Source: Chloroflexota bacterium (lineage in GTDB: Bacteria > Chloroflexota > Anaerolineae > Promineifilales > Promineifilaceae). From it: a stretch of DNA of 63,266 bases. The notes under the pieces were generated by a model. The model worked only from the letters and a program-made list of their open reading frames with translations. It made no database searches and was not told the origin of the DNA. Within the stretch, counting starts at the first letter, position 1; every line of letters starts with the position of its first letter. The stretch is taken from assembly GCA_018004935.1 (NCBI GenBank), contig JAGNBF010000003.1:91230-154495 (forward strand). The letters run 5' to 3'. Of the stretch, positions 4,445 to 41,856 are shown piece after piece. A program made the position numbers and the translations under genes.

Positions 4445-4566
4445 CCCACCCCCTCCGATTCCAGAGGGAAGGGGGGAACCCCAACGGCGCGGTTTGGGGG
4501 CGTCCGCCTCCAAACCGCGCCAAGAAAAGTTCCCCGCCCCTGGGGGCGGGGTTAGGGGTGGGGTGG
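4445..4566. repeat. Variable-hairpin G/C-frame repeat, copy 1
   Basis: Most of the 4321-4603 gap is one copy of the conserved frame: a pyrimidine-rich 'CCCACCCCCTCC...GGGAAGGGGGG' segment, a hairpin core at 4486-4521 (GGCGCGGTTTGG paired with CCAAACCGCGCC, extended inward with one G-T pair), then GTTCCCCGCCCCTGGGGGCG and GGTTAGGGGTGGGG. The element ends about 38 bases before the likely start of the carboxyltransferase gene. The remaining bases show no gene. Confidence 0.85.
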
Positions 4567-4603
4567 CCCCGGATGACCGTTTTTGAGTACCCAACAGGTC
4601 TAT

Positions 4604-8782: not shown

Positions 8783-10426
8783 TTATAAGGGTAAAGTCAT
8801 GTACAACCCATTGAGGGTGAAGCCGTGCCGGGCGTAATATTCGCGGGTGCCAATGGCGCTGATGACAGCCAGGTGGGCGTAACCCGCCTCATGTGCCATC
8901 TGTTTGGCCTGGACAATGAGGCGTGCTCCCAGGCCAATGTGTTGCGCTTCACCGTCGCTGTTTTCACCCAGCAGAAGGGCGGGGCCATACACATGCACCT
9001 CGCGGATCATGGCATGTCCGGCCAGTTCGGGTAGGGGCAGAGGGATGTCCTGACGGGGGAAGGAAAGGCGCAGGAAACCGGCAATGCGCTCATCGTCGGT
9101 TTCAAAGCTGAGGAAATGTTCGGTGGTGGCGTCGCTGTCGTAGGTGGTGATGACCATGTTCAGGTCTTCGGGAGCTACCGAGTCGCGCCGGATTTCACGG
9201 CAACGGATACATTGGCAACGTAAGCCGCGCTCTTTAAGTTTTTGTTGGGCGACTTCACGCAGGTTGGCTTTTTTGTTCCCTTCCACCACATTGGTGGTGG
9301 GGAAGTCGCGGATGACCCGGTTCAGGCGCACGTAACGGGGAACCTGCGCTTTGCAGGCGACCAACACTTCGGCTACTTCGTCTTCGGTGTAAGGGCGATA
9401 TTCGCCGCGTTGCCAGTAGTCGTATAGTTCGGCCTGTTCCAGCAACATGCAGGGATACAGTTTCAACTCATCGGGGCGAATGGCCGGGTCAGACCAGAGG
9501 CGGCCAAAGTCCTCAATGTCGCTGGCCGGAGTTGCGCCCAGCAGATTGGCCATCCAGTGCCCATGAATTTTGAACCCGGCCAACCGGAGCAGGCGAAAGG
9601 CGTCGCGGGTGCTTTGCACGTCGTGGCCCCGTTTGTTGAGGGCCAATACCTGTTCGTCCAGGCTTTGGATGCCGATCTGGACTTTGGTGACGCCCAGGTA
9701 ACGCATCCAGCGCAGTTCGTCGGCGTCAATATGGTCTTGCCGGGTTTCGACAACCAGACCAACATTACGCCGTTGGGAGGTGGCATTCCGTTCCTGCGCT
9801 TCTACCAATGTGGCCGAATCCACCTCATTCATGGCATCCAGGCAACGCTGAACAAACCACTCCTGGTAATCGCGCCGATAACTGGACCAGGTTCCGCCCA
9901 AAATGAGCAGTTCAATCTTCTCTGCCGGGTGGCCTATTTTTTCCAGGGCGCGGATGCGGACTGAGGTTTGTTCGTAGGGGTCGAAGGCGTGGCGCTCGGC
10001 CCGTTGTGCGCCGGGTTCGTCATGCAGGTAACTTTTGGGCATCCGCACATCGGTGGGGCAGAAAATGCATTGGCCGGGGCAGGGATATGGCTTGGTGAGG
10101 ACGGTGACGACGGTGACACCGGCCTGGGTGCGGGTGGGTTTCACCTGGAGCAACAGGGGTACATCGGGGTCGAAGGTGAGGTAGCCGCTATCGCACAGCA
10201 GGCGATAAATGCGGATGAGTTTATCTTTAGCCAGCCAGGGTAAACCTTGCCGGGAATATTGGCCCATGATGCGGCGATACCGTTTGGTGGTCAGCGGCCG
10301 CACTGCCACCAACTCTTCGATGAGCCGGGCATATGCCGCTTCCTGCCCTTCCAGAGCCGGTAACTCTCGCTGGGCATACCACGCCCTATCATCAATCTCT
10401 ATAACTGGTACAAAGCCTGTTTTCAT
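8783..10426 (-). CDS. elp3: Elp3-like radical SAM / GNAT tRNA-modifying enzyme
   Basis: 547 residues in Elp3 order: a tRNA-binding N-terminus, a radical SAM core with CPGQCIFC (Cys116, Cys120, Cys123), and a C-terminal acetyltransferase domain (about 460-547: IGLGARLIVQAKQMAHEAGY, REYYARHGF). Elp3 makes carboxymethyl-uridine at wobble U34 of tRNA using acetyl-CoA and SAM. The cluster here is CX3CX2C, tighter than the CX9CX2C of archaeal and eukaryotic Elp3. ATG 10426 is preferred: GGTGG/AAGG precede it, while the upstream TTG at 10447 has no such site. It stands alone in bacteria, without other Elongator subunits. Confidence 0.88.
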   Translation of the reverse strand: MKTGFVPVIEIDDRAWYAQRELPALEGQEAAYARLIEELVAVRPLTTKRYRRIMGQYSRQGLPWLAKDKLIRIYRLLCDSGYLTFDPDVPLLLQVKPTRTQAGVTVVTVLTKPYPCPGQCIFCPTDVRMPKSYLHDEPGAQRAERHAFDPYEQTSVRIRALEKIGHPAEKIELLILGGTWSSYRRDYQEWFVQRCLDAMNEVDSATLVEAQERNATSQRRNVGLVVETRQDHIDADELRWMRYLGVTKVQIGIQSLDEQVLALNKRGHDVQSTRDAFRLLRLAGFKIHGHWMANLLGATPASDIEDFGRLWSDPAIRPDELKLYPCMLLEQAELYDYWQRGEYRPYTEDEVAEVLVACKAQVPRYVRLNRVIRDFPTTNVVEGNKKANLREVAQQKLKERGLRCQCIRCREIRRDSVAPEDLNMVITTYDSDATTEHFLSFETDDERIAGFLRLSFPRQDIPLPLPELAGHAMIREVHVYGPALLLGENSDGEAQHIGLGARLIVQAKQMAHEAGYAHLAVISAIGTREYYARHGFTLNGLYMTLPL

Positions 10427-10447
10427 CAACCTTCCACCGATGACCAA

Positions 10448-11656: not shown

Positions 11657-11930
11657 ATACCACCTGACGATTGATGATTGAGTCTACTGCAATAAGTCCG
11701 GTTTTAGACTGATCTAACCGTCGCTTCCAGAGAGAAAGAAACCGGGCTTTTAACAACTTTGACCTTTTTTCAGTGGAGTCATGATTGTTAGCTCATTTGT
11801 AACTATACCGGCAATGGACACAATCTGCGATTTTTTCGCCCTGTTGCCCTGTTGCTTTATCGTATCCGAGGCCACCCCTGACCCCGCCCCCAAACCGCGC
11901 CGGTAGATTTCTCGCCTTGCCTCTTGTTGA
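11657..11930. other. Gap with repeat fragments
   Basis: No gene is seen. Around 11872-11905 there is a truncated piece of the G/C-frame repeat (GGCCACCCCTGACCCCGCCC then CAAACCGCGCC), sharing the CAAACCGCGCC core of the copy at 4486-4521. Confidence 0.5.
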
Positions 11931-12077
11931 TTAAATGATTAATCGGGTAATGAGTGGTTTCACCCATCCCCCTGTGCTTTCCGGCAGAAAGGAGAAAATA
12001 ACCGGCACAGGAAAAAGTTATCCGCCCCTGGGGGTGGGGTTAGGGGTGGGGGAAACCCTATTACCTGACTATTTTTG
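11931..12077. mobile_element. MITE-like element M1 carrying the G/C frame
   Basis: It is bounded by GATTAATCGGGTAATGAGT and, inverted, CCTATTACCTGACTATTTTT. Inside are the CCCATCCCCCTG start, an imperfect hairpin (CTGTGC at 11972-11977 with GCACAG at 12005-12010) and the frame end CGCCCCTGGGGGTGGGGTTA. There is no coding capacity. It shares its ends with the elements at 13708-13893 and 14623-14802. Confidence 0.75.
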
Positions 12078-13645: not shown

Positions 13646-13707
13646 ACCGTTCAGGGCAATTGCCTACTCACCCAAATGAACCCATCCCCTGACGCCTTCC
13701 CAATTGT

Positions 13708-13893
13708 CGTTTAAAAAATTAATCAGGTAATGGAATCCCCCCCACCCTAACCCCGCCCCCAGGGGCGGGGAACTTTTCTAAGGGGCATTTTTCGGGGCAT
13801 TCGCCCCGAAAAATGCCCCATGGGAATTCCCCCCTTCCCGAGGGAATCGGCAGGGGGGATGGGGTCAATGAAGGCGTTACCCGATTAAAAATT
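13708..13893. mobile_element. MITE-like element M2 carrying the G/C frame (inverted)
   Basis: The ends AAAAAATTAATCAGGTAATG and CGTTACCCGATTAAAAATTT are good inverted repeats with few mismatches. The interior is the G/C frame in reverse orientation around a perfect 17-bp stem (GGGGCATTTTTCGGGGC at 13782-13798, loop ATTC, complement to 13819). No coding capacity is seen. Confidence 0.8.
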
Positions 13894-13894
13894 T

Positions 13895-13970
13895 AATGAA
13901 CAAAAGGGAAGAGGGAAAACCGCACCAGAAATTGTTCTCCGCCTCTGGGGCGGGGTTAGGGGTGGGGGTT
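13895..13970. repeat. Partial G/C-frame repeat overlapping the Nudix 3' end
   Basis: AAGGGAAGAGGGAAAACCGC is followed by a shortened core and then CTGGGGCGGGGTTAGGGGTG. The last codons and TAA stop of the Nudix gene (minus strand, reading ...CCC CAC CCC TAA) are supplied by this element. Confidence 0.7.
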
Positions 13971-14540
13971 TCCGGGTTTCAGGGCCAGGGCGCGGCGTTT
14001 TTGTAGACTTGCCCGCAGGTAAAAATGTTCGCCCGGCGTCAGGTGAAAATCTGTCAGGTCGGACAGGTGCCGCATTGTCGAACCTAACTCAAATCCATTT
14101 ACCTCTTTAGCCGCTGGTCTAAATTCCACGGCCAGACCGGAATAAACCACCTGGATAAAGTCAGGGTACAAAAAGGGGTAACCTTTGGGTTTTGGCTCAC
14201 GGTGATGAAAATGGCGAAAACCTACCAGTTGTAACTGTTCAACCAGCCAACCGGTTTCTTCCAAGACTTCACGGCAGGCTGTTTCCTCTAAGGATTCGCC
14301 GGGTTCGCGGCGACCACCGGGTAAAATGTGGTAATGGTGGGGATCTTGGACGACCAGGACGCGGCCGCGCCATAACACTACACAACGTACAGATGTTACC
14401 CAGGCAACCGGGGGTGGCTCATCACTTAGATGATCCGTGAGGCGCATCAGCAGATCATGCCCATGCCAACGCCATACGACCTGTGATTCCATCTGCGCTG
14501 GGTGCATGTGTAAAAAGGGAGTTAGCTCTTGCGCCTGCAT
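13956..14540 (-). CDS. Nudix hydrolase
   Basis: 194 residues. The Nudix box is intact at about 76-98 (GRREPGESLEETACREVLEE then TGW), giving the Mg-binding REVLEE helix. The domain starts near residue 45 (VAWVTSVRCVVLWRGRVLVV). The N-terminal 45 residues are not recognised. Such enzymes hydrolyse nucleoside diphosphates linked to another group; the substrate is unknown. The gene is flanked by MITE-like elements on both sides and its stop codon lies inside one, so its C-terminus may be a variant of the ancestral form. Confidence 0.85.
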   Translation of the reverse strand: MQAQELTPFLHMHPAQMESQVVWRWHGHDLLMRLTDHLSDEPPPVAWVTSVRCVVLWRGRVLVVQDPHHYHILPGGRREPGESLEETACREVLEETGWLVEQLQLVGFRHFHHREPKPKGYPFLYPDFIQVVYSGLAVEFRPAAKEVNGFELGSTMRHLSDLTDFHLTPGEHFYLRASLQKRRALALKPGNPHP

Positions 14541-14622
14541 ACCCTAAGTGTGACCTGTTCCGGAAAAAATGACAAGACAAAGAGGCCAGATACTACGGCA
14601 TTGATTGGGCCATTTTCCGCCC

Positions 14623-14802
14623 AAATTATTAATCGGGTAATGAGTTAATTCGCCCTCCTGCGATTTCCGGTGGGAGGGGGAAACACCAGGCGTGCCGGAT
14701 ATTGAGCGCGGCCGCGCTCAATATCCGGCACATGAGAAAGTTCCCCACCCCTGGGGGCGGGGTTAGGGGTGGGAGAAACCCTATTACCTGACTGTTTTTT
14801 TA
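14623..14802. mobile_element. MITE-like element M3 with 40-bp perfect palindrome
   Basis: The ends AAATTATTAATCGGGTAATG and CCTATTACCTGACTGTTTTT match M1 closely. The core at 14692-14731 is a perfect 40-bp palindrome (GTGCCGGATATTGAGCGCGG joined to its exact complement) with GCGGCCGC at its centre, followed by the frame end GTTCCCCACCCCTGGGGGCG. The rest of the 14541-14907 gap shows no gene. Confidence 0.85.
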
Positions 14803-14907
14803 AACAACAAAAGGCGGGGAAATCCGGGTTGCCCTTACCCGGCAGTTCTTCATTGCGGTGGAACCAGGGAGAGCGATTGTGGTAGAATCCCCCACGGAGT
14901 TTGTGAA

Positions 14908-15426
14908 ATGTCCATTTATTGGTATGCACTTCGGGTAAAACCACATAAAGAAGGGTTTGTCGAAGAGATATTACACACACAAAAGGTTACCTTTTTTTGT
15001 CCCCGGGTGCGGGTACAGCCGAAAAATCCCCGAGCGGCAAAAGAGCGGCCCTATTTTCCCGGGTATGGTTTTATCCGGGCCAATCTGGCAGATTTGGGCG
15101 AGAATTTTTTCCAATGGATTCCAGGCACGGTAGGATTGGTGACCTTTGGGGGGGAACCGGCTATTGTGCCCGATCATCTGATACATGAGCTTCGTGACCG
15201 GGTAAATCAGATTGAAGCCAGTGGGGGCCTCATCTTTGCCGATTTGCATAAAGGGGATCGGGTACGGATAACCGGTGGCCCTTTTGCCGGGTATGAGGCG
15301 ATTTTTGATATGAGTCTGCCGGGCAAAGAGCGGGTGCAAGTACTATTGGCCTTTTTGAGTAAGGCTTTGCAACCCGTACAATTACATGTGGCTGATGTGG
15401 TAAAGGTCAAGAAAGGCAATGTGTAA
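14908..15426 (+). CDS. NusG-family specialised elongation factor (RfaH/UpxY/LoaP-like)
   Basis: 172 residues. The NGN domain (about 3-100) opens with YWYALRVKPHKEGFVEEIL and contains RPYFPGYGFIRANL. A KOW domain follows (about 112-145: KGDRVRITGGPFAGYEAIF). Housekeeping NusG is normally in the secE-nusG-rplK cluster, whereas paralogues at the head of polysaccharide operons act as operon-specific antiterminators. This position suggests that role (inference). GGAG lies about nine bases before the ATG. Confidence 0.85.
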   Translation: MSIYWYALRVKPHKEGFVEEILHTQKVTFFCPRVRVQPKNPRAAKERPYFPGYGFIRANLADLGENFFQWIPGTVGLVTFGGEPAIVPDHLIHELRDRVNQIEASGGLIFADLHKGDRVRITGGPFAGYEAIFDMSLPGKERVQVLLAFLSKALQPVQLHVADVVKVKKGNV

Positions 15427-17621: not shown

Positions 17622-18889
17622 CGATGGTTATCTCTGTAGAGAATCTAAGTAAAAGTTACCGCCTGGGCCAGATTGGAACGGGCACGTTAACCAATGACCT
17701 GAAGGTTTGGTGGGCTAGACGCCGCGGCCGCACCAACCCTCTTCTAAAGATTGGCCAAAACGATCAGTCTCGACAGAATGACGAAACGGTGTGGGCATTG
17801 CAAGACGTAAGTTTTACGGTTCAACAAGGTGAAGTGCTGGGTATTATTGGTAAGAATGGAGCGGGCAAAAGTACCCTACTTAAAATACTTTCTCGTATTA
17901 CGGCTCCGACGAGTGGACAGATAAAAGTGAAAGGGCGTATCGCCAGCCTGCTTGAGGTAGGGACGGGTTTTCATCCCGAATTGACCGGACGCGAAAATAT
18001 TTATCTCAATGGTGCAATCTTGGGCATGAGCCGTCGGGAAATTGACCGCAAGTTTGGTGAGATTGTGGATTTTGCCGAAATAGAGAAATTTATTGACACA
18101 CCCGTCAAACGTTATTCTAGTGGTATGTATGTAAGATTGGCTTTTGCTGTGGCCGCACATTTGGATCCTGAAATTTTGGTGGTGGATGAAGTGCTGGCGG
18201 TTGGTGATGCGACTTTCCAAAAAAAATGTTTGGGTAAAATGGGAGAGGTGGCGAAAGAGGGGAGGACGGTATTGTTTGTAAGCCACAATATGACAGCGGT
18301 AAAAAGTTTGTGTCATAATGGGATGCTGTTGCACAACGGAAACGTTTTCTATCTAGGGGAAATCAGTAGAACTGTCAACGCCTATCTTTCTATTAATAGA
18401 CGTGAGATTATTGAACAAAATTGGGACTCAATAGAGTCTGCACCAGGAAATAGTTTGGTAAGAGTGAGACGCGTAAAACTGGTGCCAATAGCGGGAACTG
18501 AAAACAGCTTTTTAACTGTTAATACACAAATCCAAGTATCTTTTGAGCTATGGATTCTGCAACCCGCTACCCTAAATATCAGCATGCATCTGAGTTTGAT
18601 AAGTGGTGATGTCATCTTTGCATCACCTTCGCCAAGTATTGATTGTAAATCAGGGTTAGTTCAATTTACTTGTAATATTCCAGGTGAACTATTGAATGAT
18701 GGTATTTATTCGTTGCTGATGATGGTCGTTAAGGATTCTTCTAAAGTTATTTATAAGATGGACAATGCTGTAGTATTTGAAATACACGACAGTGAGCGCA
18801 TAGGGCATTGGTTAGGAAAATGGCCGGGTGCAGTTCGGCCAAAATTAGAATGGTTAACATGTAATATGGATGATAATAAGGACAGTTAG
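17618..18889 (+). CDS. Polysaccharide ABC transporter ATP-binding protein (Wzt/TagH-like)
   Basis: 423 residues. Nucleotide-binding domain: Walker A GKNGAGKS at 78-85, signature YSSGMYVRLAFA (about 165-176), Walker B ILVVDEVLAVGD (about 186-197) and the switch His in LFVSHNMTAV. Beyond residue 260 a beta-rich C-terminal region (about 270-415) is in the place of the Wzt carbohydrate-binding domain that recognises the modified chain end. An octamer lies near its 5' end. The 3' third is visibly more AT-rich, as is the next 6 kb. This suggests that the tail domain was exchanged with the island downstream. Confidence 0.9.
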   Translation: MTMVISVENLSKSYRLGQIGTGTLTNDLKVWWARRRGRTNPLLKIGQNDQSRQNDETVWALQDVSFTVQQGEVLGIIGKNGAGKSTLLKILSRITAPTSGQIKVKGRIASLLEVGTGFHPELTGRENIYLNGAILGMSRREIDRKFGEIVDFAEIEKFIDTPVKRYSSGMYVRLAFAVAAHLDPEILVVDEVLAVGDATFQKKCLGKMGEVAKEGRTVLFVSHNMTAVKSLCHNGMLLHNGNVFYLGEISRTVNAYLSINRREIIEQNWDSIESAPGNSLVRVRRVKLVPIAGTENSFLTVNTQIQVSFELWILQPATLNISMHLSLISGDVIFASPSPSIDCKSGLVQFTCNIPGELLNDGIYSLLMMVVKDSSKVIYKMDNAVVFEIHDSERIGHWLGKWPGAVRPKLEWLTCNMDDNKDS

Positions 18890-19051
18890 TGCATATGGTA
18901 AGCAAGAATAATTCTTCATTTCTTTGATCTAAAAACCTGATAGAAAATTCGCTTTAAATAAGGCTCTTTTCCCATCAGATTTTTTAGGCTATTGTATTCG
19001 TTCAAATTCAGGTGGAATATAACAAATCCTCAATAACTGAGAACGTGAAAA
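18890..19051. other. AT-rich gap
   Basis: I see no gene, repeat or convincing promoter in this spacer between the exporter ATPase and the aminotransferase-like gene. Confidence 0.4.
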
Positions 19052-20092
19052 ATGTACACCGACAAAATTATAGGTGGTCTCTTTGGTTGGGAATTCAATA
19101 TTAGACCCCATGACCCAGTAGTACCACTATGGTTGCAGGGTAGCGAATGTATGCAACTGGTAAATGCACGTAGTGGGCTTTGCTTACTTGCTGCGTATTT
19201 GAAGCCAGCGAATATTTGGTTGCCCACATATCTTTGTGAATCGATAGTTACGAGTTTTGTAACTTTTGAGGGAGAAATTAATTATTATCCCGTGGACATC
19301 GCCTTAAATTCAGTTAACCGCAATTGGTTGGATAATGTCAAAGAAAAGGATCTCGTTGTTGTAATTGATTACTTTGGCTGGCGCGCAGACAATGACCTGT
19401 TAGAGCAAATACGAGTAACGGGAGCATATATTTTAGAAGATGCTTCACAAGCGATTCTGACTGCCGATGTTGGAGTAGGAGTAGATTATTGTCTCTACAG
19501 TCCGCGTAAATTTTTCCCCGTACCCGATGGTGGTGTACTGTGCGCGAAGGGCAGGGCTTCTTTGCCAAGAGTAACATTGCAACAAAGTCCAAATGCATGG
19601 TGGTTTCAAGCCTTTCATGCAGTTATGTTACGCGGTGAATTCGATAAATATGGTGGTGATCGTAAGTGGTTTGAATTATTCCAATCGTCAGAAGCTCACT
19701 CACCTATTGGGATGTATCAGATGAGTGAGTTTTCCAATCGTGCTTTGTCTACCCTGTTTGATTATGAAGCGATTGCATCTGTACGAATACGCAACTATCA
19801 ATTTCTAGCAAACAATTTGGGGGAATTGGCATTCCGTCCGAATTTGCCTCTAGGAGTTGTGCCTTTAGGGTTTCCTGTTTCTATTCCTGAGCGAGATAGA
19901 GTGCGTCAATATATGTTTGCTAACAAAATCTATCCAGCATTTCACTGGCCCGTGCCGACATGTGTTCCTTCAAGTTTCACTGACAGCCGAAGGACTGCGA
20001 AGAAACTCATGACTCTACCATGTGACCAACGATATGAAATTGCAGATATGGAACGAATGGCTACTATTATTAAGGATGCAATTTTTTCATGA
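19052..20092 (+). CDS. DegT-like PLP-dependent aminotransferase, divergent
   Basis: 346 residues with an aminotransferase fold type I outline. NARSGLCLLAAYL is the cofactor phosphate region, YILEDASQAI carries the PLP-contacting Asp, and YSPRKFFPVPDGG carries the probable Schiff-base Lys153. It is distant from classical DegT/ArnB proteins (which read SFHxTK). It probably makes an amino sugar for the surface glycan. The gene is AT-rich and free of the octamer. Its stop overlaps the next ATG by four bases. Confidence 0.7.
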   Translation: MYTDKIIGGLFGWEFNIRPHDPVVPLWLQGSECMQLVNARSGLCLLAAYLKPANIWLPTYLCESIVTSFVTFEGEINYYPVDIALNSVNRNWLDNVKEKDLVVVIDYFGWRADNDLLEQIRVTGAYILEDASQAILTADVGVGVDYCLYSPRKFFPVPDGGVLCAKGRASLPRVTLQQSPNAWWFQAFHAVMLRGEFDKYGGDRKWFELFQSSEAHSPIGMYQMSEFSNRALSTLFDYEAIASVRIRNYQFLANNLGELAFRPNLPLGVVPLGFPVSIPERDRVRQYMFANKIYPAFHWPVPTCVPSSFTDSRRTAKKLMTLPCDQRYEIADMERMATIIKDAIFS

Positions 20093-20994
20093 ATGGTTAT
20101 GCAAGTGAGGGATATGCGATTTCTCTGTCTGAATTTGGTCAGCCTAGGTTTTTGCCAATGAGCGAGGGCTGGATACAGGAGAGGCTAATACAAAATAGCT
20201 CACAGAAAGATGCGAGGGCTATGTATCCACTGTTCTCTTGCAATAAATGGACGCATCTGCCACAAGATCTTGATGTACTGCAACAAGACTCGGGTCTGGT
20301 GAGTCTTGTGATAGTAACAGATCCATTTGGTGACTACGATGAAGGTTTGTTGCATTACTGTTTTCCGGATCTTGTACGTCCGTTTAAACGACATTATTTG
20401 GTAGATATGATTAGCCCATTTCAAGTTTCTAAACATCATCGTTATTACACACGTAAATCTTTGGAGAAGGTACGTGTTGAGACTTGTACTAATCCCATCG
20501 ATCTACTTGATGAATGGATGGCGTTATATGGAGTACTTGTCAGTCGCCATAAAATCACAGGAATTCAAACTTTTTCTCAACGAGCATTTGAACAACAACT
20601 AGCCTTACCAAATGTAACTGCTTTCTGTTCATTACTAGGTGACCGAATTATCGGTATGCATTTGTGGATTCGAGGTAACGATATTGCTTACAGTCATCTA
20701 ACAGCATTTCATGAAGAAGGGTATCAACTTAATGCATCATATGCTTTGTATAGTTATGCTATTGATTATTTTGCGGGGCAAGTTCGATGGCTCGATCTCG
20801 GTAGTGGGGCTGGATTTGAAGATAATGCGAACGATGGGTTAAGTAAATTTAAACGTGGTTGGAGTAATGCGGAGCGTAATGTTTACCTTTGTGGTCGTAT
20901 TTTTGACCGCACAGCATACGATCTTTTAATTCAACAGCACGGTATCAAACCAACAACCTTTTTCCCGGCTTATAGGTCGGGGGATTTCCAATAG
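20089..20994 (+). CDS. GNAT/FemAB-like acyltransferase
   Basis: 301 residues. The middle and C-terminal parts (about 125-285) look like a GNAT/FemX domain: RYYTRKSLEKVRVE, MALYGVLVSRHKITGIQTFS, GDRIIGMHLWIRGNDIAYSH and LNASYALYSYAIDYF. Related proteins in glycan loci acylate amino sugars or add amino acids to them. Translational coupling to the preceding aminotransferase suggests amination then acylation of one sugar (inference). It is AT-rich and lacks the octamer. Confidence 0.6.
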   Translation: MNGYASEGYAISLSEFGQPRFLPMSEGWIQERLIQNSSQKDARAMYPLFSCNKWTHLPQDLDVLQQDSGLVSLVIVTDPFGDYDEGLLHYCFPDLVRPFKRHYLVDMISPFQVSKHHRYYTRKSLEKVRVETCTNPIDLLDEWMALYGVLVSRHKITGIQTFSQRAFEQQLALPNVTAFCSLLGDRIIGMHLWIRGNDIAYSHLTAFHEEGYQLNASYALYSYAIDYFAGQVRWLDLGSGAGFEDNANDGLSKFKRGWSNAERNVYLCGRIFDRTAYDLLIQQHGIKPTTFFPAYRSGDFQ

Positions 20995-21132
20995 TATTGC
21001 TGGTCAAAACCAACAATATTGATTTCTGTATTAGTCACTTATACTTCTTATGAATTCTCCGAAGGGAGAATGAAAAAATAACATAAAAGCATAATATAGA
21101 GTTCAGAGTTCAGGGGAGAAGTCACCGAAATC

Positions 21133-21693
21133 ATGAATATTCTTGGCAAAAAAGTGGTACTACGTGCGATTGAAGAAGATGATTTACCGCAACTCCATGT
21201 GTGGGCTAATGATCCGGAAATTTGGTATATGCTAGGTGGATGGCACTTCCCCAGTTCTATGGAATACCAGAAGAAGTGGCTTTCTTCACTTCAACATGAC
21301 TCTTTGAATCAGCGTTTTGCTATTGCTGTACCGAATATGGGCCTGATTGGAACTGCAAATCTTGTGGAAATTGATTGGAAAAATAACCACGCCTTTCATG
21401 GAATGATGCTTGGTAATGTAGATGTGAGAGGGAAGGGCTACGGAACTGACACAATCCTGGCTGTAATGCGTTATGCTTTTGAGGAATTACATTTTGAACG
21501 GTTAGATAGTTCAATAATTGAATACAACTCGATTTCCTTGAATGTTTACTGTAAAAAATGTGCGTGGAAGGTCGAAGGAAGATTGCGAAGATGGTATTTT
21601 AGGAAAAATAGTTATTGGGACAAAATCCTGATTGGGGTCACGCGTGATGATTATTTTGATCTGATCGAGAAGAATGGGTATTGGGAAAAGTGA
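21133..21693 (+). CDS. GNAT N-acetyltransferase (RimJ/RimL type)
   Basis: 186 residues. KVVLRAIEEDDLPQLHVWAN is the typical opening of the RimJ/L-like family. GNVDVRGKGYGTDTILAVMR is the acetyl-CoA pyrophosphate-binding loop, and LNVYCKKCAWKVEGRLRRWY is the C-terminal half. In glycan loci this class acetylates 4-amino sugars, as in legionaminic or viosamine pathways. The upstream gap (20995-21132) has only a short hairpin (ATTCTCC-GAAG-GGAGAAT at 21054-21071). Confidence 0.8.
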   Translation: MNILGKKVVLRAIEEDDLPQLHVWANDPEIWYMLGGWHFPSSMEYQKKWLSSLQHDSLNQRFAIAVPNMGLIGTANLVEIDWKNNHAFHGMMLGNVDVRGKGYGTDTILAVMRYAFEELHFERLDSSIIEYNSISLNVYCKKCAWKVEGRLRRWYFRKNSYWDKILIGVTRDDYFDLIEKNGYWEK

Positions 21694-21753
21694 TGATATA
21701 TGAAGATTGGACTTTTGAACAGAATTTTTTAGCTATAAAAGGATGTGTGCAGA

Positions 21754-22962
21754 ATGAAACAAAAGATCGATCAACTTGCGATTTTTTCTAAGAAACCTGT
21801 TTTTCACGAAAAGCAGCATGTAGGACGACCTAACATTGGTGATCGTGCGGTACTATTCGGTCGGATAAATGATATGCTTGACCGTCGCTGGCTCTCCAAT
21901 AATGGCCCCTATGTACAGGAATTTGAGCAAAAAATTGCTGAATTTGTAGGAGTTAAGCATTGCATTGCCGTGTGTAATGCAACGATAGGTTTAGAGATAG
22001 TCGTCCGTGCATTAGATCTTAAAGGCGAGGTACTTGTCCCATCTTTTACGTTCATTGCTACTGCTCATGCCTTGCAATGGCAAGAAATCACACCTGTTTT
22101 TTGCGATGTTGATCCCTTTACCCATAATATTGATCCAACTAAAGTTGAGCGGATGATTACCCCCAAGACTAGCGGTATTTTGGGAGTCCATGTTTGGGGT
22201 CGTGCATGTGATATTGAAGCCCTAGACGAGATTGCGAGTAGACATAAACTTAAACTCCTGTTTGATGCGGCTCATGCAATTGGGTGCTCGTACCAAGGCA
22301 AAATGATTGGGAATTTCGGTCAAGCTGAGGTGTTTAGTTTTCATGCCACCAAATTTTTGAACAGTTTTGAGGGGGGAGCAATTGTCACAAATAACGATGA
22401 TCTGGCACAAAAAATCCGCTTAATGACAAATTTCGGTTTTGATGGCTTCTATGACAATGTGGTTTATTTAGGAACAAATGGGAAGATGACTGAAGTTTGT
22501 GCCGCCATGGGGTTAACCAGCTTAGAAAGCATCAATGGTTCGATAGAGGCAAATTACCGTAACTACCAAGTTTATATGCAAGAATTGAATGGACTTCCAG
22601 GCTTACGTATATTGACGTATGACGAAGCAGAGTGCAACAATTTTCAATACATCATTTTAGAAATTGATGAGCAATTGGCAGGGATAAGTCGCGATGTGAT
22701 GGTGAAAATATTGCATGCAGAAAATATTCTGGCACGCCGCTATTTTTATCCTGGTTGCCATCAGATGGAGCCTTATCGCTCTTTATTTCCACACGCTAGA
22801 TTGTTGTTGCCCATAACAGAAAGTTTGGTTAAACGTGTAGTGTCTTTGCCAACTGGTACATCTATAACGACTAATGGTGTAAAAAAAATATGTCAGATTA
22901 TCCGTTTTGTAGTAGAGAACAAAGAATTGGTTCTGAATGGATTAAATGAGTACTGTGAATAA
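21754..22962 (+). CDS. DegT/DnrJ/EryC1/StrS aminotransferase
   Basis: 402 residues. RRWLSNNGPYVQEFEQKIAE, CIAVCNATIGLEI and VPSFTFIATAHALQW are family landmarks. LLFDAAHAIGC carries the PLP-contacting Asp and FSFHATKFLNSFEGG the internal-aldimine Lys200. These enzymes aminate keto-sugar nucleotides with glutamate as donor. ATG 21754 is chosen over GTG 21745. The next gene starts 17 bases before this one ends. It is AT-rich and lacks the octamer. Confidence 0.88.
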   Translation: MKQKIDQLAIFSKKPVFHEKQHVGRPNIGDRAVLFGRINDMLDRRWLSNNGPYVQEFEQKIAEFVGVKHCIAVCNATIGLEIVVRALDLKGEVLVPSFTFIATAHALQWQEITPVFCDVDPFTHNIDPTKVERMITPKTSGILGVHVWGRACDIEALDEIASRHKLKLLFDAAHAIGCSYQGKMIGNFGQAEVFSFHATKFLNSFEGGAIVTNNDDLAQKIRLMTNFGFDGFYDNVVYLGTNGKMTEVCAAMGLTSLESINGSIEANYRNYQVYMQELNGLPGLRILTYDEAECNNFQYIILEIDEQLAGISRDVMVKILHAENILARRYFYPGCHQMEPYRSLFPHARLLLPITESLVKRVVSLPTGTSITTNGVKKICQIIRFVVENKELVLNGLNEYCE

Positions 22963-23905
22963 CCAAGAATTGCCTCTGGTTAGCGTATGTTTAATCACGT
23001 ATAACCATGAAAAGTATATAGCACATGCCATTGAAAGCGCACTTATGCAACGAACTTTCTTCAAATACGAGATTGTTATTGGGGAAGATTGTTCAACTGA
23101 TAATACGCGTGCTATCGTACGCTACTATGCAGATCGGTACCCAGAGCGAATTTTCATGTTGCTACCAAAGCAGAATCTAGGGGCTCACATTAATTTTATT
23201 ACAACTTTAAATGCATGTAAGGGAAAATACATTGCTATCTTGGAAGGTGATGATTATTGGACAGATCCCTACAAATTACAAACTCAAATATCCTTTCTCG
23301 AAGAAAACCCCGATTTTAACGTTTGTTATCATCGGGTCGATTCAGAAGCTGATCTGCTTAATCAGAGCGGAATTGGTAATCATGTATTTTTCTTTGCTGA
23401 TTCATTAAAAGGCAAAAACGGCGCAACACTTTCGATGGTATTTCGCAATTCAAGAGAATTACAGGAATTGTATGAAAAGACTGCTTTGAAATTGCCCATG
23501 GGGGATTGGCCGTTGGAGTGCCTATTAACCCTTAATGGAAAGGGATATTTTATTGATCGTTCAATGGGTTTCTATAGTCAATTATCTACAGGGGTGAGTG
23601 TCACTAAATTGCAACGAAAAGAGAGCTACTTCGAAAGCAGAATAATTTTCTTTGAGTCATTACTTAAATATGTGTCGCTATCACCCGATCAGCATACGCT
23701 CATTCACTGTATTTTGATTTTCCATAAAATAGCAAACCAAAACAGTAAACTTAATAAGTCATTTACTATCTGGTCTTTTTTAACGCAGGTAGTGAACTTC
23801 GTAAGGTATTGGTCATTCTACAAATATGATCCAGATTATCAGTACTCATATAAGAAACAGTTACACAAGACATTTCGCATTATCAATTCGAGATTCATAA
23901 CTTGA
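22946..23905 (+). CDS. Glycosyltransferase family 2
   Basis: 319 residues. The GT-A nucleotide-sugar domain has VSVCLITYNHEKYIAHAIES, EIVIGEDCSTDNT and the metal-binding LEGDDYWTDP. A C-terminal extension is basic and not recognised. It transfers one sugar to the growing surface glycan at the cytosolic side. It overlaps the aminotransferase gene, so it is translationally linked. It is AT-rich. Confidence 0.88.
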   Translation: MSTVNNQELPLVSVCLITYNHEKYIAHAIESALMQRTFFKYEIVIGEDCSTDNTRAIVRYYADRYPERIFMLLPKQNLGAHINFITTLNACKGKYIAILEGDDYWTDPYKLQTQISFLEENPDFNVCYHRVDSEADLLNQSGIGNHVFFFADSLKGKNGATLSMVFRNSRELQELYEKTALKLPMGDWPLECLLTLNGKGYFIDRSMGFYSQLSTGVSVTKLQRKESYFESRIIFFESLLKYVSLSPDQHTLIHCILIFHKIANQNSKLNKSFTIWSFLTQVVNFVRYWSFYKYDPDYQYSYKKQLHKTFRIINSRFIT

Positions 23906-24029
23906 AAAAGAGACATGCCTAAAATTTATTTCCACGCGTTGGGCATCTTTGCTGTGGATTTTATCAGCAGATCGAGCTATATCGTTTGCTGAACTCTATG
24001 TTACGGGGTTGTATTTTTGGATCAATGGG

Positions 24030-24113
24030 ATTGGGGGGGTGATCAGTGCTGTAAGGGTTAGCCCGTTTTGGGCAACTACAAGGGTTTACCGCCACCCCAC
24101 GGAATCCTAAAGA
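24030..24113. repeat. Degraded repeat C copy
   Basis: GGGGGGTGATCAGTGCTGTA, GGGTTAGCCCGTTTTGGGCA and ACTACAAGGGTTTACCGCC are recognisable but diverged relatives of the repeat at 12078-12193. It lies at the junction where octamer-bearing, GC-richer sequence resumes after the AT-rich block. Confidence 0.65.
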
Positions 24114-24126
24114 AAATGGGAAGGCT

Positions 24127-25137
24127 ATGTTCGAAAATAGAATATTGATTATTGGAGAGGTGGCTCAGGCGCATGATGGAAGTCTGGGAATGGCTCATGC
24201 GTTTATTGATACGATTGCTAAGGCTGGAGCAGATGCTGTTAAGTTTCAGACACATATTGCCCAGGCAGAAAGTACGCCCGCAGAACCCTGGCGGGTCAAG
24301 TTTAGTCGTCAAGACGCATCCCGTTATGCGTACTGGCAACGCATGGAGTTTACGGAAGAACAGTGGCATGGTTTGAAGCAACATGCCTCGGATCGAGGTT
24401 TAATTTTTTTGAGTTCACCGTTTTCGGTGGAAGCGGTGGAGTTACTAAAACGGGTGGGTGTGGCGGCCTGGAAGGTGGCTTCAGGTGAAGTAACTACGGC
24501 CCCTATCTTTGAGCGGATGGCGGAAACCGGTTTGCCTTTGTTGTTGTCAACTGGGATGAGTTCTTTAACGGAGATTGACGAGGCGGTAGCACGTATTCAG
24601 GCCAGGAACCTGCCTTTTGCTGTCCTGCAATGCACATCGGCTTATCCTTGCCCGCCGGAAAAAGTTGGTTTAAATTTGATCCCTGTTTTTCGGGAGCGCT
24701 ATCAATCAGCCGTGGGGCTATCGGATCATTCGGGGACAATCTACCCAGGTTTAGCGGCCGCGACACTGGGCATTGAAGTCTTGGAAGTTCATGTAGCTTT
24801 TAGTCGGGAAATGTTTGGCCCGGATGTTCCGGCATCGTTAATTCCGACTGAATTACGTCAGTTGGTAGATGGGGTGCGATTTATTGAGGCGATGAAAGCG
24901 AATCCGGTAGATAAGAATCGTATGGCTCAAGAAATGGCGCCTTTGCGGGATTTGTTTACCAAAAGTGTGGTGGCTCGTCAGCCTTTGGTAGCCGGAACCA
25001 TTTTAGAAGAGGAACATTTAACCGTAAAAAAACCAGGGACGGGGTTTCCCGCTTCTCGTTTGACTGAGTTAATCGGCAAACAATTACTGCGTGATGTACA
25101 AACGGATGAGCAGTTGCAAATTGCGGATGTGATGTAA
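24127..25137 (+). CDS. neuB: N-acetylneuraminate/nonulosonate synthase (NeuB family)
   Basis: 336 residues. The TIM-barrel part has IIGEVAQAHDGSLGMAHAFI, GADAVKFQTH, WKVASGEVTTAPIF, LLLSTGMSSLTEID, LQCTSAYPCPPEKVGL and VGLSDHSGTIYPGLAAATLG. A SAF (antifreeze-like) domain closes the protein (about 275-336: RDLFTKSVVARQPLVAGTIL). It condenses PEP with an N-acetylated hexosamine to give a nine-carbon ulosonic acid. Sialic, legionaminic and pseudaminic synthases share these motifs, so the exact product is open. Confidence 0.92.
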   Translation: MFENRILIIGEVAQAHDGSLGMAHAFIDTIAKAGADAVKFQTHIAQAESTPAEPWRVKFSRQDASRYAYWQRMEFTEEQWHGLKQHASDRGLIFLSSPFSVEAVELLKRVGVAAWKVASGEVTTAPIFERMAETGLPLLLSTGMSSLTEIDEAVARIQARNLPFAVLQCTSAYPCPPEKVGLNLIPVFRERYQSAVGLSDHSGTIYPGLAAATLGIEVLEVHVAFSREMFGPDVPASLIPTELRQLVDGVRFIEAMKANPVDKNRMAQEMAPLRDLFTKSVVARQPLVAGTILEEEHLTVKKPGTGFPASRLTELIGKQLLRDVQTDEQLQIADVM

Positions 25138-32224: not shown

Positions 32225-34081
32225 GTGTGTGGGATTTGTGGTGCATATACACTAACAAGTTCTGAAATCGAGACGCTTGATCATGCTGTCAAAGGGATGA
32301 CTGACCTTATGGCTCGGCGCGGCCCAGATGATGAAGGGTTTTGGTCAGACAGTCACTGTGCGTTGGGCTTTCGCCGTCTGGCGATTTTGGACCTGGCTCC
32401 AACCGGTCATCAGCCCATGATTACAGCCGATGGGCGGTATGTGTTGATTTTTAATGGCGAGGTGTATAACTTTCAGGAACTGCGGCCGCGACTTGAACAG
32501 CGCGGAATTCAATTTCGGTCAACTGGGGATGCCGAAGTCATACTCTACGCTTTGGCAGAGTGGGGTGTAAAAGCCCTCGAACAGTTTAATGGTATGTTTG
32601 CACTGGCTTTTTATGATCGCCACACCAAACAACTGCTTCTGGCCCGCGATCACGCGGGCATTAAACCACTCTTTTATCTTCGTACAGAGCAAGGAGTCGT
32701 TTTTGCCTCGCAGTATAATCAGCTACTGCAACACCCCTGGGGAAGCCGACAGGATATTTCTTCAGAGGGGCTGGCTCTTTATCTCCGTTTTGGCTATATG
32801 CCCGCCCCTTATACCCTTCATAACCATACATTCGCTCTGGATGCAGGGTGTTGGGTACGCTTTTCCTCTGATGGTCAGGTCGAACAAGGGCAATTTTATA
32901 CTTTTCCGGTGTTTCAGGAGCCAACTTTGCAGGGTGCGGCCGCGGTTGACGCACTCGATCATGCCTTGAGCCAGGCTGTAGCCCGTCATCTCATCAGTGA
33001 TGTGCCGGTAGGCGTTTTCCTCTCTGGGGGCATAGATTCCCCGTTGGTTGCCGCTGAAGCACGTCGTCATACACAAACCTCGATCAAGGCCTTTTCTATT
33101 GGCGTTACCGATCCGAATATGGATGAATCGGCTGACGCGCAGCAATATGCTCAGGAATTAGGGCTGGAGCACATATTGTGGCAAATAGACGAGGCCACCG
33201 CCTTTGGCATGTTAGATGATGTGATACAAGCCAGTACCGAACCCAATGCCGATTTCTCCATTTTCCCAACCCTGCTGGTCAGCCAGTTGGCCCATGAACA
33301 TGTGAAAGTGGCTCTTTCAGGTGATGGGGGAGATGAGTTATTTTGGGGTTATCCCCAACGCTTTGGGGCGGTTTTGGAACAGGCTCCCTACTACCGTTAT
33401 CCACCGTTCATGCGTTATGGCTTTATTGCCGCCCGCCGTTATCTGCGCCAGGGACATGCGACCCGTGATGTATTATGGCAAGACATTGGTCGTCTTTACC
33501 AGAAGAAACACACCATCCTGTTAGAAGATGATTTGGTGGCTACCTTTCCCGGCTTGAGTGAACCCTCGCCTACCTGGGATATGTTTCAGTTTCATGATAC
33601 GGAACTCCAACCTACAGCCCAATGGTTACGTTGGAATGAGTTTCGTCTCCATCTGGCCCGTATCCTACAGAAAGTAGATCGGGCCAGTATGCATCATTCC
33701 CTCGAGGTGCGTGTGCCTTTGTTAGACAAAGAAGTCATTGCCGTGGCACTGGCGACCGATTGGCGCAGTTGCCTGAATATTAGTCAGAGGATAGGCAAAC
33801 TGCCGTTGCGAGAGGTATTACGCCGGAGAGTAAAGCATCAAACGACGGCCAAAAAAGGGTTTACTGTCCCTATGGATCGCTGGTTAGCCGGACCACTTCA
33901 GAGTTTGTTGCAAGAGAAAGTGCTTTCACAAACTGATCTTCTGGGTCAACCGGTTAACCGGGCACATATACGGGTGATGAATAAAGCGTTGTTGGCTGGT
34001 GATAGTAGCCGTGCCTGGGGACTGTGGTTGCTCCTTAGTTTAATCCTGTGGAAAGAAAAGCACTTACTGAACGTGTCCTAA
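32225..34081 (+). CDS. Asparagine synthase-like glutamine amidotransferase (second)
   Basis: 618 residues, starting at GTG so that Cys2 is exposed after Met removal (MCGICGAYTL). Glutaminase landmarks: MARRGPDDEGF and FRRLAILDLAPTGHQPM. Synthase landmarks: VFLSGGIDSPLVAAEA and VALSGDGGDELFWGYPQR. It is a separate paralogue from the one at 27074 (different length and spacing), so two distinct amidations are possible. Two octamers are near its 5' half; from its 3' part onwards there are none for over 9 kb. Confidence 0.9.
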   Translation: MCGICGAYTLTSSEIETLDHAVKGMTDLMARRGPDDEGFWSDSHCALGFRRLAILDLAPTGHQPMITADGRYVLIFNGEVYNFQELRPRLEQRGIQFRSTGDAEVILYALAEWGVKALEQFNGMFALAFYDRHTKQLLLARDHAGIKPLFYLRTEQGVVFASQYNQLLQHPWGSRQDISSEGLALYLRFGYMPAPYTLHNHTFALDAGCWVRFSSDGQVEQGQFYTFPVFQEPTLQGAAAVDALDHALSQAVARHLISDVPVGVFLSGGIDSPLVAAEARRHTQTSIKAFSIGVTDPNMDESADAQQYAQELGLEHILWQIDEATAFGMLDDVIQASTEPNADFSIFPTLLVSQLAHEHVKVALSGDGGDELFWGYPQRFGAVLEQAPYYRYPPFMRYGFIAARRYLRQGHATRDVLWQDIGRLYQKKHTILLEDDLVATFPGLSEPSPTWDMFQFHDTELQPTAQWLRWNEFRLHLARILQKVDRASMHHSLEVRVPLLDKEVIAVALATDWRSCLNISQRIGKLPLREVLRRRVKHQTTAKKGFTVPMDRWLAGPLQSLLQEKVLSQTDLLGQPVNRAHIRVMNKALLAGDSSRAWGLWLLLSLILWKEKHLLNVS

Positions 34082-34091
34082 TTTTATAGAT

Positions 34092-34946
34092 ATGATGAAA
34101 TATAGATCCATGCCAGCCAGTAAATACTTTGAAAAAATAGCTCGGCGGATAGGGTTATTCAAATTTATCAACTTCATATGGTTTATTAAGATCGGTGGAA
34201 CACGATTCAAGATCCCTGTTATACAGGAGATGGGGTTAGGCAATTTTACGGTTACTGAACCGTGGATGATGGATTTGATCCAGGATTTATATAAAAAGAA
34301 GACAGGCGCTTTTATAGACATTGGAGCTAATATTGGACAAACTCTTTTAAAGCTCAAGAGTGTTGCTCCAGAGGTGGATTACGTAGGTTTTGAACCTAAT
34401 CCAGCTTGTGTTTATTATTTGCGAGAATTATTTAAAGCTAACCACTTCAAGCGTAGTATAGTTATTCCAACCGGATTGTTTAATGCTGATAGGCTAATGG
34501 AATTACTTTTTTTTGGATTGAGTGAAGTTAACAGCGGTGCATCGATAATTATGGATTTTCGCCCAACGAACAAAGTATATGAACGACAACATGTTCCAGT
34601 ATTTCGTTTTGATGAAGTCCATAAGACTCTTCCAATAGAACAAATTGCGATTATTAAGATTGATGTTGAGGGTGCCGAAATGGAAGTGCTTCAAGGGTTA
34701 CAAAAGACTTTAATGGAACAACGCCCATTTCTAATAATGGAAATATTGCCTGCATATAACGATCAAAATTTCCAACGACTTGAACGGCAGCGGCAAATAG
34801 AGCAGTTTGCCAAAGAAGCAAATTACTCTATTTTTCGGATCCTTAAAACAGATAAAGAGCGTCTGTTAGGGCTAGAAGACTTGGAAATAATAGGTATTCA
34901 TTCTGATTTGAGAAAATGCGACTATGTTTTCATCCCTCGCATCTAA
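34092..34946 (+). CDS. FkbM family methyltransferase
   Basis: 284 residues. IDIGANIGQTLLKLKS (about residue 74) is motif I, VGFEPNPACVYYL motif II, and IIKIDVEGAEMEVLQGLQ the FkbM hallmark. It O-methylates a sugar hydroxyl or similar group. It starts the AT-rich, octamer-free half of the locus. Confidence 0.88.
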   Translation: MMKYRSMPASKYFEKIARRIGLFKFINFIWFIKIGGTRFKIPVIQEMGLGNFTVTEPWMMDLIQDLYKKKTGAFIDIGANIGQTLLKLKSVAPEVDYVGFEPNPACVYYLRELFKANHFKRSIVIPTGLFNADRLMELLFFGLSEVNSGASIIMDFRPTNKVYERQHVPVFRFDEVHKTLPIEQIAIIKIDVEGAEMEVLQGLQKTLMEQRPFLIMEILPAYNDQNFQRLERQRQIEQFAKEANYSIFRILKTDKERLLGLEDLEIIGIHSDLRKCDYVFIPRI

Positions 34947-34963
34947 TCTACTTATAAGCTCAA

Positions 34964-36187
34964 ATGCGTTTAGCAATTGTCGTTAATCGGTTTCCTACGC
35001 TTTCTGAAACGTTCATATTTAACAAGGTCGTTGGCCTACGACGACTAGGAATTGATGTTACTGTTCATACTCATGAACGGCAAAATCATCTTTCCTATTA
35101 TCGGAAACAGCTAGAGAACAAAGAAACGGAGTTTGTTGTAACTGCTCTCATGGCCTGGGGGTCAATTCTTTTTGCGCCAAGGTTACTTTTTTTCGTTATT
35201 CGGTATCCAAACGCAAGTGTAAAACTTCTATGGCAAGCTATTCATCTCTATGGATTTAATAGTAGAGCATTTAAGGCGTGGCAGAAGTCATTACCCTTAG
35301 CAGTTAGGAATTATGACCTAATACATTTTGAACTTTCTGGTTTAGCGGTTCAATATCTTGATGCTTTACCACTCCTGGCGTCTGCAAAACTCCTGACAAG
35401 CTGTAGAGGGGCCGCTGAGCAAATCGTTCCTCTTGTAAATCGGAAAAGGGCTGACGAATTAACTCAGGTTTTTTCAAGCATTGATCGTGTGCATTGCGTT
35501 TCCGTAGATATGGTTTGTACAGCAATGCGTTACGGTCTTCAATCCGAGAAATCGTTTGTTAATCACCCCTCTATTGATGTTGATCAGTTTCAGCGGAACA
35601 AAAAGTATATACCTAAATCAACACCCCCTTATCGAATTGTATCTGTAGGACGTTTACATTGGAAGAAAGGCTATCAAGATGCTTTGGTCGCTCTGAAAAA
35701 ACTATTGTTGGATGGCTATCAGGTATCGTATGAAATTGTTGGCGGTGGCCCTGTAGAGGATGAATTGCGCTATATAATTGATGACTTAGAATTGAATGAT
35801 CATGTTTTTCTTAAAGGCCCTCAGTCTGCACAATTTATTCGAGATTTACTAGAGGAAGCGGATATATTTTGGTTGCCAAGTTTAAGTGAGGGATTAGCTA
35901 ATTCAGCTTTAGAAGCAATGTCTATGGAGTTACCTGTCGTATCTACGACTGCTGGTGGCATGAACGAAGCAATAATTGATGGGCAAGAGGGATTTCTTGT
36001 CCCACCGTACACTCCAGATGCAATTGTTGAAAAAACGAAAATGTTGTTACAAAATCCTGATTTACGCTGTGCTATGGGCAAGGCCGCACGCCATCGAGTA
36101 AAGCAGGATTTCAATCTACAAAGACAGGTTGAGCGTTTTGTAGAGGAATATGAAAAACTTCTCAATGTAACATCGGAACCTTTATGA
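34964..36187 (+). CDS. Glycosyltransferase family 4
   Basis: 407 residues. The acceptor half opens with VNRFPTLSETFIFNKVVGLR, the pattern of 'colanic-acid type' GT4 proteins. The donor half has IVSVGRLHWKKGYQDALVAL, LEEADIFWLPSLSEGLANSA, LEAMSMELPVVSTTAGGMNE and a C-terminal helix. The last four bases overlap the next gene. AT-rich, no octamer. Confidence 0.88.
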   Translation: MRLAIVVNRFPTLSETFIFNKVVGLRRLGIDVTVHTHERQNHLSYYRKQLENKETEFVVTALMAWGSILFAPRLLFFVIRYPNASVKLLWQAIHLYGFNSRAFKAWQKSLPLAVRNYDLIHFELSGLAVQYLDALPLLASAKLLTSCRGAAEQIVPLVNRKRADELTQVFSSIDRVHCVSVDMVCTAMRYGLQSEKSFVNHPSIDVDQFQRNKKYIPKSTPPYRIVSVGRLHWKKGYQDALVALKKLLLDGYQVSYEIVGGGPVEDELRYIIDDLELNDHVFLKGPQSAQFIRDLLEEADIFWLPSLSEGLANSALEAMSMELPVVSTTAGGMNEAIIDGQEGFLVPPYTPDAIVEKTKMLLQNPDLRCAMGKAARHRVKQDFNLQRQVERFVEEYEKLLNVTSEPL

Positions 36188-37347: not shown

Positions 37348-37358
37348 CAATTAACCCT

Positions 37359-38510: not shown

Positions 38511-38515
38511 TTGAG

Positions 38516-39691: not shown

Positions 39692-39693
39692 TT

Positions 39694-41854: not shown

Positions 41855-41856
41855 TA

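Follow-up and report, generated by a model that had tools for sequence, protein, structure and literature searches.

Why does a bacterial genome carry a long palindrome without a spacer, and why is an octamer that recurs throughout the same genome placed exactly at its dyad? The question is raised by a stretch of 63,266 nucleotides of a Chloroflexota genome (the window), in which positions 14692-14731 read GTGCCGGATATTGAGCGCGGCCGCGCTCAATATCCGGCAC. This is an exact palindrome of 40 bp with arms of 20 bp each and no spacer, and its dyad is the octamer GCGGCCGC at 14708-14715. The sequence-only reading had described it as perfect, loop-less and octamer-centred, and on re-reading the letters we found this description to be exact. 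The 40-bp palindrome is the core of a hairpin-forming repeat with about a hundred copies in the genome. The window copy is located between two divergent genes, one encoding a NUDIX protein (13956-14540, minus strand) and the other a NusG-like protein (14908-15426, plus strand).

14692-14731, no strand assigned: 40-bp perfect loop-less palindrome, the central stem of the element (from the sequence and an alignment of 53 copies)
14708-14715, no strand assigned: GCGGCCGC octamer at the dyad (62 copies in the window, 12,040 in the genome)

A perfect palindrome at the core of a genomic repeat

Comparison of the surrounding 231 bp with its own genome gave at least 81 match rows at no fewer than about 40 main places (40 of the 778 first-look candidates). 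The 16-bp core GAGCGCGGCCGCGCTC is found with at most one mismatch at 113 places, against 12,040 octamers. The earlier remark that the two most unusual signals of the window coincide here is therefore true of the letters, but only ~1% of the octamers are in such cores. Much of the comparison below uses a non-random sample of 663,266 bp in 31 stretches, consisting of the window and 30 stretches of 20 kb from contigs in earlier match lists. This sample contains 30 loop-less palindromes of at least 16 bp, 13 of which are octamer-centred, and the three longest, with lengths of 40, 40 and 38 bp, belong without exception to the repeat superfamily described below; two replicates of a Markov order-1 control contained no loop-less palindrome longer than 20 bp.

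Further octamer-centred palindromes, whose existence the sequence-only reading had left to be seen, are present on varied contigs and in varied flanks. Of the 54 copies, 30 form perfect palindromes of 40 bp and comprise 15 different sequences; a single mismatch is seen in 17 copies and two mismatches in 4, and the remaining three contain 4, 5 and 13 mismatches. Palindromes are a known source of assembly and amplification artefacts, and the genome is in 229 contigs, so that a fold-back chimera had to be considered. However, many copies lie inside contigs with differing arms and flanks, and a shared module with symmetric variants is not what an artefact is expected to leave. The spread of the octamer-centred copies over different contigs and flanks makes an assembly error very unlikely, and we regard an artefact of either kind as hardly credible. 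The instability that had been expected of such a palindrome is partly borne out, in that two copies show loss: in one, in the window, the left arm and dyad are gone, and in the other (L130) the palindrome is wholly lost. On the other hand, the full 44-base spacing is retained in 48 of the 70 flank pairs found. A length of 40 bp is well under that at which palindromes are inviable in E. coli.

11924-12076, plus strand: sister copy in which the left arm and dyad of the palindrome are lost and ATAACCGGCAC alone is left

Among the 59 genomes searched (first 13 or fewer candidates per genome), the element was matched in its own genome only and in no one of the 58 relatives. Likewise, a module of a second subfamily matched its own genome only among 52 genomes of the family (first 13 or 16 candidates per genome). 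A search of a genome contig database, from which the own record was possibly left out, gave no match to the right arm plus core, and Rfam gave none within the window at the gathering score. We found no literature report of these repeats in a search that covered few subscription papers. The abundant modular hairpin repeat is real and so far known from this genome only. As for the phylogenetic surroundings, a 554-aa protein of the window (8783-10447, minus strand) has its best matches in Anaerolineae, Promineifilum and Ardenticatenia MAGs, with up to 74% identity, which places the host among the uncultured Chloroflexota.

Anatomy of the element

In both the RNA and the DNA fold of the strand, the palindrome stands between hairpin 1 (14649-14682) and a G-rich hairpin 3 (14741-14777), and the RNA fold adds an outer stem formed by 14633-14642 and 14782-14791. 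The element folds better than all 200 of its dinucleotide shuffles (z -6.1 as RNA and -5.6 as DNA). We aligned 53 octamer-centred copies, leaving the copy at L040, which has lost its left arm, out of the alignment, the covariation and the helix counts. With few exceptions, the 53 copies have in common AAACACCAGG, the 40-bp stem and AGAAAGTTCCCC, and the outer parts are variable or absent in many of them. The fuller copies are mostly ~200 bp long and run from TTGTTGATTAAA..TTAATCGGGTAA to TTACCTGACT...TTTAAACAACAA, with ends of the form TTGTT...AACAA. In the window copy the right end is present (14784-14810) and the left end, better preserved in other copies, is damaged. The bounds found here, 14614-14810, are near the 14623-14802 proposed before.

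14649-14682, plus strand: hairpin 1, with arms C-rich and GGGAGGGGG, left of the palindrome (RNA and DNA folds; helices 3-6 are 39-75% paired)
14741-14777, plus strand: hairpin 3 or G-rich arm, TTCCCCACCCCTGGGGGCGGGGTTAGGGGTGGG... (folds; helix 9, with 85% of cells paired)
14784-14810, minus strand: right terminal inverted repeat with the end TTTAAACAACAA (comparison among copies)
14614-14640, plus strand: left terminal repeat, degenerate, with TTAATCGGGTAA retained and TTGTTGATTAAA lost (6 mismatches to the family end)

One superfamily, many stems

The G-rich hairpin 3 recurs beside other stems of the same genome. Using AAAGTTCCCCGCCCC as an anchor with up to 3 mismatches, we obtained 117 matches in the sample; 59 have a stem just upstream, and the other 58, whose stem score was below 11, were dropped. 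The stems of this superfamily are of widely different sequence, mostly with 14-20 bp per arm and spacers of 0-8 bases in the sample, and a sequence-specific operator was rejected because the arms differ so widely between subfamilies. Over all sequence examined there are 132 distinct modules with arms of 12-22 bp, of which 99 are perfectly paired as trimmed by score. This count differs from 59 because the one comes from the non-random sample and the other from all examined sequence, which is enriched in octamer-centred copies. A module has a central stem, with arms of 12-22 bp and a spacer of 0-8 bases, between hairpin 1 on one side and the G-rich hairpin 3 on the other. Extrapolating from the 59 modules in the non-random 663-kb sample, the superfamily amounts very roughly to 700 modules per genome. 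Three further loci of the window belong to it.

13704-13903, minus strand: element of a sister subfamily with terminal repeats and another central stem, GGGGCATTTTTCGGGGC gaat GCCCCGAAAAATGCCCC
57595-58564, plus strand: tandem array of six modules with a period of about 168 bp and the stem AGCGCCGTTTTTCGGGGC gaag GCCCCGAAAAACGGCGCT (5.6 units of 168 bp when delimited as a tandem repeat, at 57597-58542)
4449-4570, plus strand: further module with the stem GGCGCGGTTTGGGGGCG tc CGCCTCCAAACCGCGCC

A tandem array of a 114-bp unit (3.8 copies, 62830-63266) is also present and runs past the window end.

Of 54 sample modules placed on a crude ORF map, 40 lie outside ORFs. For the 35 modules with a gene on each side, the orientations are ++ 12, -+ 9, -- 8 and +- 6, and the fractions at random intergenic places are 0.27, 0.23, 0.39 and 0.11, respectively. 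These strong, G+C-rich and mostly intergenic hairpins could be intrinsic transcription terminators that are repeated by happenstance, and the 6 of 35 modules between convergent genes amount to a slight, not a marked, excess over the random 0.11. However, the palindrome is followed by A..AGAAAGTTCCCC and not by a T run, and 9 of 35 modules, a fraction close to the random 0.23, are between divergent genes, as is the window copy. We therefore consider terminators to be very improbable.

The same short hairpin repeats, being mostly outside ORFs and both single and in tandem, also resemble REP or REPIN elements, which would be mobilised by a RAYT-type HUH transposase. The genome has a single Y1_Tnp match, in the C-terminal part of a fusion protein of 388 aa (L224 2561-3727), whose gene has three tandem modules ~0.3-0.6 kb upstream, and single modules ~2.5 kb upstream and 5 kb downstream. 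The putative HUH motif of the protein reads HVQ, and a 938-aa ORF downstream of the gene is presumably DNA polymerase I. Against this explanation, the match of the fusion protein is weak (E 1.4e-6; solved transposase relatives at E 4.8e-5), the module density (59 in 663 kb) is enough for a chance neighbour, and in the consensus of the 53 copies the stem is not flanked by GTAG or CGTC. In PMC3733652, REP, REPIN and BIME sequences with RAYTs, of the GTAG and CGTC super-families, are small palindromic repeats of high copy number that are mostly intergenic, single or in arrays, and in many cases have very short spacers, all of which they share with the element. The stems of the GTAG families treated there have 6-13 bp, in contrast to mostly 14-20 bp per arm here. 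Unlike REPs and REPINs, the element is without the GTAG/CGTC tag and has extra hairpins, terminal repeats and no convincing RAYT, and we judge an origin as a REP or REPIN improbable.

Two-sided changes and inverted spacers

The central stem varies between the copies and stays paired. Among the stem substitutions in the 53 copies, 51 cells carry a two-sided Watson-Crick change and 34 are unpaired (one-sided), where cells are copies counted and not events, as changes are inherited among related copies. Over 16-bp arms, 30 of 53 copies are perfect; when the partner arms were shuffled 2,000 times, the number averaged 5.2 and never exceeded 12. The left arm is off the consensus in 38 copies, and half of these (19) are perfect nonetheless. 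On the alignment, 98.5% of the cells of the palindrome stem are paired, with two-sided changes at 11 of 18 pairs, whereas the other helices of the element are far below this (39-88% of cells). In helix 1 of the outer stem, whose end is absent in many copies, all 8 pairs have two-sided changes and 63% of cells are paired, and hairpin 3 has such changes at 6 of 13 pairs. The whole drawn structure has 100 two-sided cells, above all 500 shuffles (mean 44) and every slid control (45-65).

Covariation of this kind is normally strong evidence for a selected RNA fold. The stem could accordingly be kept by selection, whether it acts as a folded RNA or single-stranded DNA or is recognised through its structure by a mobilising enzyme, and the changes would then be ordinary compensatory mutations. 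The fold that surpasses every dinucleotide shuffle is in line with this, as are the many stems near 17-20 bp per arm across subfamilies, and the covariation, though strongest in the central stem, places the whole drawn structure above all shuffles. In contrast, the other helices are much less paired, and wobble intermediates are not clearly favoured. G.T mismatches number 15 against 8 for A.C (p 0.21); without a clear excess, no strand-specific signal of RNA selection is resolved. One observation speaks against the template switching proposed below: transversions make up 34 of the 51 two-sided cells and 23 of the 34 one-sided mismatches are of the transition type (Fisher p 0.004), so that the present mismatches do not resemble the raw material of past two-sided changes.

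The spacers provide a further feature of the stems. When loop-bearing copies were grouped by the inner 12 arm bases, the same spacer was found in both orientations in 6 of the 10 groups with at least two such copies. With stricter grouping, in which copies had to share the inner 15 bases, pair perfectly along both arms and have a spacer of at least 2, both orientations occur in 5 of 9 groups, with counts of cttc 5 and gaag 2, attc 4 and gaat 3, ga 3 and tc 1, ga 2 and tc 1, and ttc 2 and gaa 1. Copies of a tandem array are not independent in these counts. The other 4 of 9 groups under the stricter rule, and 4 of the 10 groups with loops under the first, have no spacer inversion. The GGGGCATTTTTCGGGGC arms enclose gaat (3) or attc (4) with flanks that are similar on both sides and in the same orientation, and the CGGCGCGGTTTGGCGAGCG arms enclose ga or tc in nearly identical surroundings. 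At L116, three tandem copies have gaag, cttc and gaag. An unrelated host hairpin is likewise found with the spacers TTG and CAA and with TT and AA. The presence of both orientations is difficult to reconcile with recognition of the loop by a partner, and we find selection as the keeper of the stem rather unlikely. As GGCC is self-complementary, the window copy would show no trace of an inversion. A second, unrelated hairpin repeat, GCCCGGTCGT..ACGACCGGGC (L013, L014, L024, L032, L046, L047 and L131), has its spacer in both orientations, and it is a recurrent insertion site of the element.

Template switching by DNA polymerase at inverted repeats yields both arm homogenisation and spacer inversion, according to PMC8604942, and it is described for stems in PMC8794818. 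As the homogenised arms and inverted spacers of 2-5 bases observed here have the published signature, we infer that template switching has acted on the repeat. The cases described there are in yeast coding genes or in RNA genes, whereas the present one is a single bacterial repeat superfamily. Template switching during replication would keep the arms identical by copying a mutation of one arm into its partner, and would now and then invert the spacer. The octamer subfamily would look loop-less because GGCC is unchanged when inverted.

Termini and insertion into hairpins

Terminal inverted repeats, TTGTTNATTAAA..TTAATCGGGTAA (up to 5 mismatches in the search) and TTTTTTAAACNACAA (up to 3), bound 20 distinct copies of 179-257 bp, most of them ~200 bp; many other copies are without one or both ends. 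The flanks of the two-ended copies tend to be mutually inverted, with a mean local score of 8.5 compared with 6.1 after permutation, and none of 10,000 permutations scored as high. This test covered two-ended copies only, in 22 rows that represent the 20 copies with two entered twice for alternative ends. The own partner flank was strictly best in only 3 of the 22 rows, because many copies share the same host hairpin families. For example, the host hairpin GCCCGGT[C/G]GT..AC[C/G]ACCGGGC is empty at several loci, whereas at L035, L107 and L119 its apex is occupied by an element, the empty and occupied hairpins being paralogous loci and not alleles of one locus. Copies are also nested in hairpins of their own superfamily. 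The window copy was not among the rows of the flank test, and a host hairpin is presumed for it from its own flanks.

14612-14621, plus strand: left arm of the presumed host hairpin, ATTTTCCGCC
14813-14823, minus strand: right arm of the presumed host hairpin, GGCGGGGAAAT

Given their terminal inverted repeats and their tendency to lie in hairpin apices, the fuller copies (~20) look like non-autonomous mobile elements. The flanks of the two-ended copies defined no target-site duplication; as the host flanks are themselves inverted repeats, a duplication of a few bases would be indistinguishable. In the sequence examined, end pairs that face inward at distances of 300-4,000 bp (ten rows, some of them duplicates) have no recognisable transposase between them. 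The longer pairs enclose NUDIX, glycosyltransferase, HI0933-like, DUF4013 and MerR genes, and others no long ORF. The element thus resembles bacterial MITEs such as MITEAba12 in its ~200 bp length, terminal inverted repeats, dispersal and lack of a transposase gene. It differs from them in that neither a target-site duplication nor a parent transposon was found in the sequence examined, and in its three internal hairpins, the central stem of which differs between subfamilies. Certain insertion sequences reportedly target REPs, which is insertion into a palindromic repeat. The element has such a target in common with them, but what is inserted here is hairpin-rich and non-coding and also nests in its own superfamily.

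The explanation that we favour, at a probability of roughly 0.6, joins three parts: template switching maintains the arms, the form with terminal repeats is MITE-like and moved in trans, and the octamer is an incidental passenger. The form with terminal repeats would spread as a non-autonomous element mobilised by a putative transposase with a preference for hairpin apices. The dyad GCGGCCGC would be an ordinary member of a HIP-like octamer set of the genome that was carried along when its subfamily was amplified. A bolder version, which we advance tentatively and hold at somewhat less than even odds, is that the stems are palindromic mainly through mutation, by arm copying and spacer flipping in template switching, and not through selection. 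New stems could then arise freely and each hairpin apex could become the next insertion site, giving a self-feeding nest. Here replication itself may yield the pattern that is otherwise credited to selection, and this large natural set in one genome makes the origin of covariation, by selection or by replication, measurable. It also advises caution before stems of this kind are interpreted as functional RNAs or operators.

The octamer as a HIP-like word

GCGGCCGC occurs 62 times in the window against 1.07 expected, and 12,040 times in the 7.98-Mb genome (1,509 per Mb) against 2 for a reversed control word. The sample contains 876 copies, with 13 expected from base composition, and its single-base variants occur 2-54 times each against about 24. 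The next highest counts are 2,136 among 301 genomes of the phylum and 1,959 among 52 genomes of the family. Some relatives in the family are also far over the control, namely G315 (1,462 vs 2) and five genomes of genus g183 (742-1,959 vs 5-248). GCGGCCGC is therefore as dense as a HIP, that is, a palindromic word at ~1,000 per Mb or more and tens-fold over expectation. HIP1 (GCGATCGC) and the alternate HIPs of cyanobacteria are likewise GC-rich palindromic words at 1,000-2,000 per Mb in PMC4390886, whereas the word here is GCGGCCGC and the phylum Chloroflexota. The main text of that paper contains no match for Chloroflex or GCGGCCGC, and our literature search, with subscription papers mostly outside it, found no report of GCGGCCGC as an iterated palindrome. 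It appears that this genome holds a HIP1-like octamer outside cyanobacteria, which would allow the methylation-based model of these words to be tested independently. Within the sample, the octamer reaches 1,486 per Mb in crude ORFs but 542 per Mb outside them, and 549 of 813 are in one phase.

The octamer could be suspected of causing the palindrome, but stems with other centres are at least as perfect, and this idea is not supported. Perfect stems number 32 of 56 with the octamer at the centre and 48 of 76 with other centres (Fisher p 0.59), and mismatches per base are slightly more frequent in the octamer-centred stems (39 of 896 vs 34 of 1,216). As the octamer-centred stems are no more perfect than the others, the coincidence of octamer and palindrome is probably incidental. 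Moreover, stem apices of the form GCG-ga-CGC or GCG-tc-CGC are common in the sample, and one change in such an apex gives GCGGCCGC, so that the coincidence needs no special cause.

Several C5, D12 and N6/N4 methylase genes of the genome are candidates for methylation of the octamer. At L073 393-2604, the gene for a C5 DNA methylase (375 aa) overlaps a 421-aa nuclease-like ORF, and a search of 399 other genomes of the phylum gave relatives of this ORF in just 2. In PADLOC the ORF has a single weak match, to REase_II; Pfam (up to E 10) and NCBIfam gave none, and there is no solved relative (the best, at E 0.99, is an unrelated enzyme). A NotI-like enzyme, suspected at first, received no support from the sequence searches. 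A link between the octamer and this pair was also looked for, but the genomes of the relatives do not have an excess like that of the own genome (G070, 708 vs 530 for the control; G221, 519 vs 824).

The long octamer-free gaps of the window, 17732-24753 and 32944-42329, are largely of low G+C content (mostly 0.39-0.43) and may be recently acquired DNA. In the sample, GAGCTC is found 0 times, GTCGAC once, CTGCAG twice and GCCGGC 3 times, compared with 167-192 expected from base composition, a near absence such as restriction avoidance would give.
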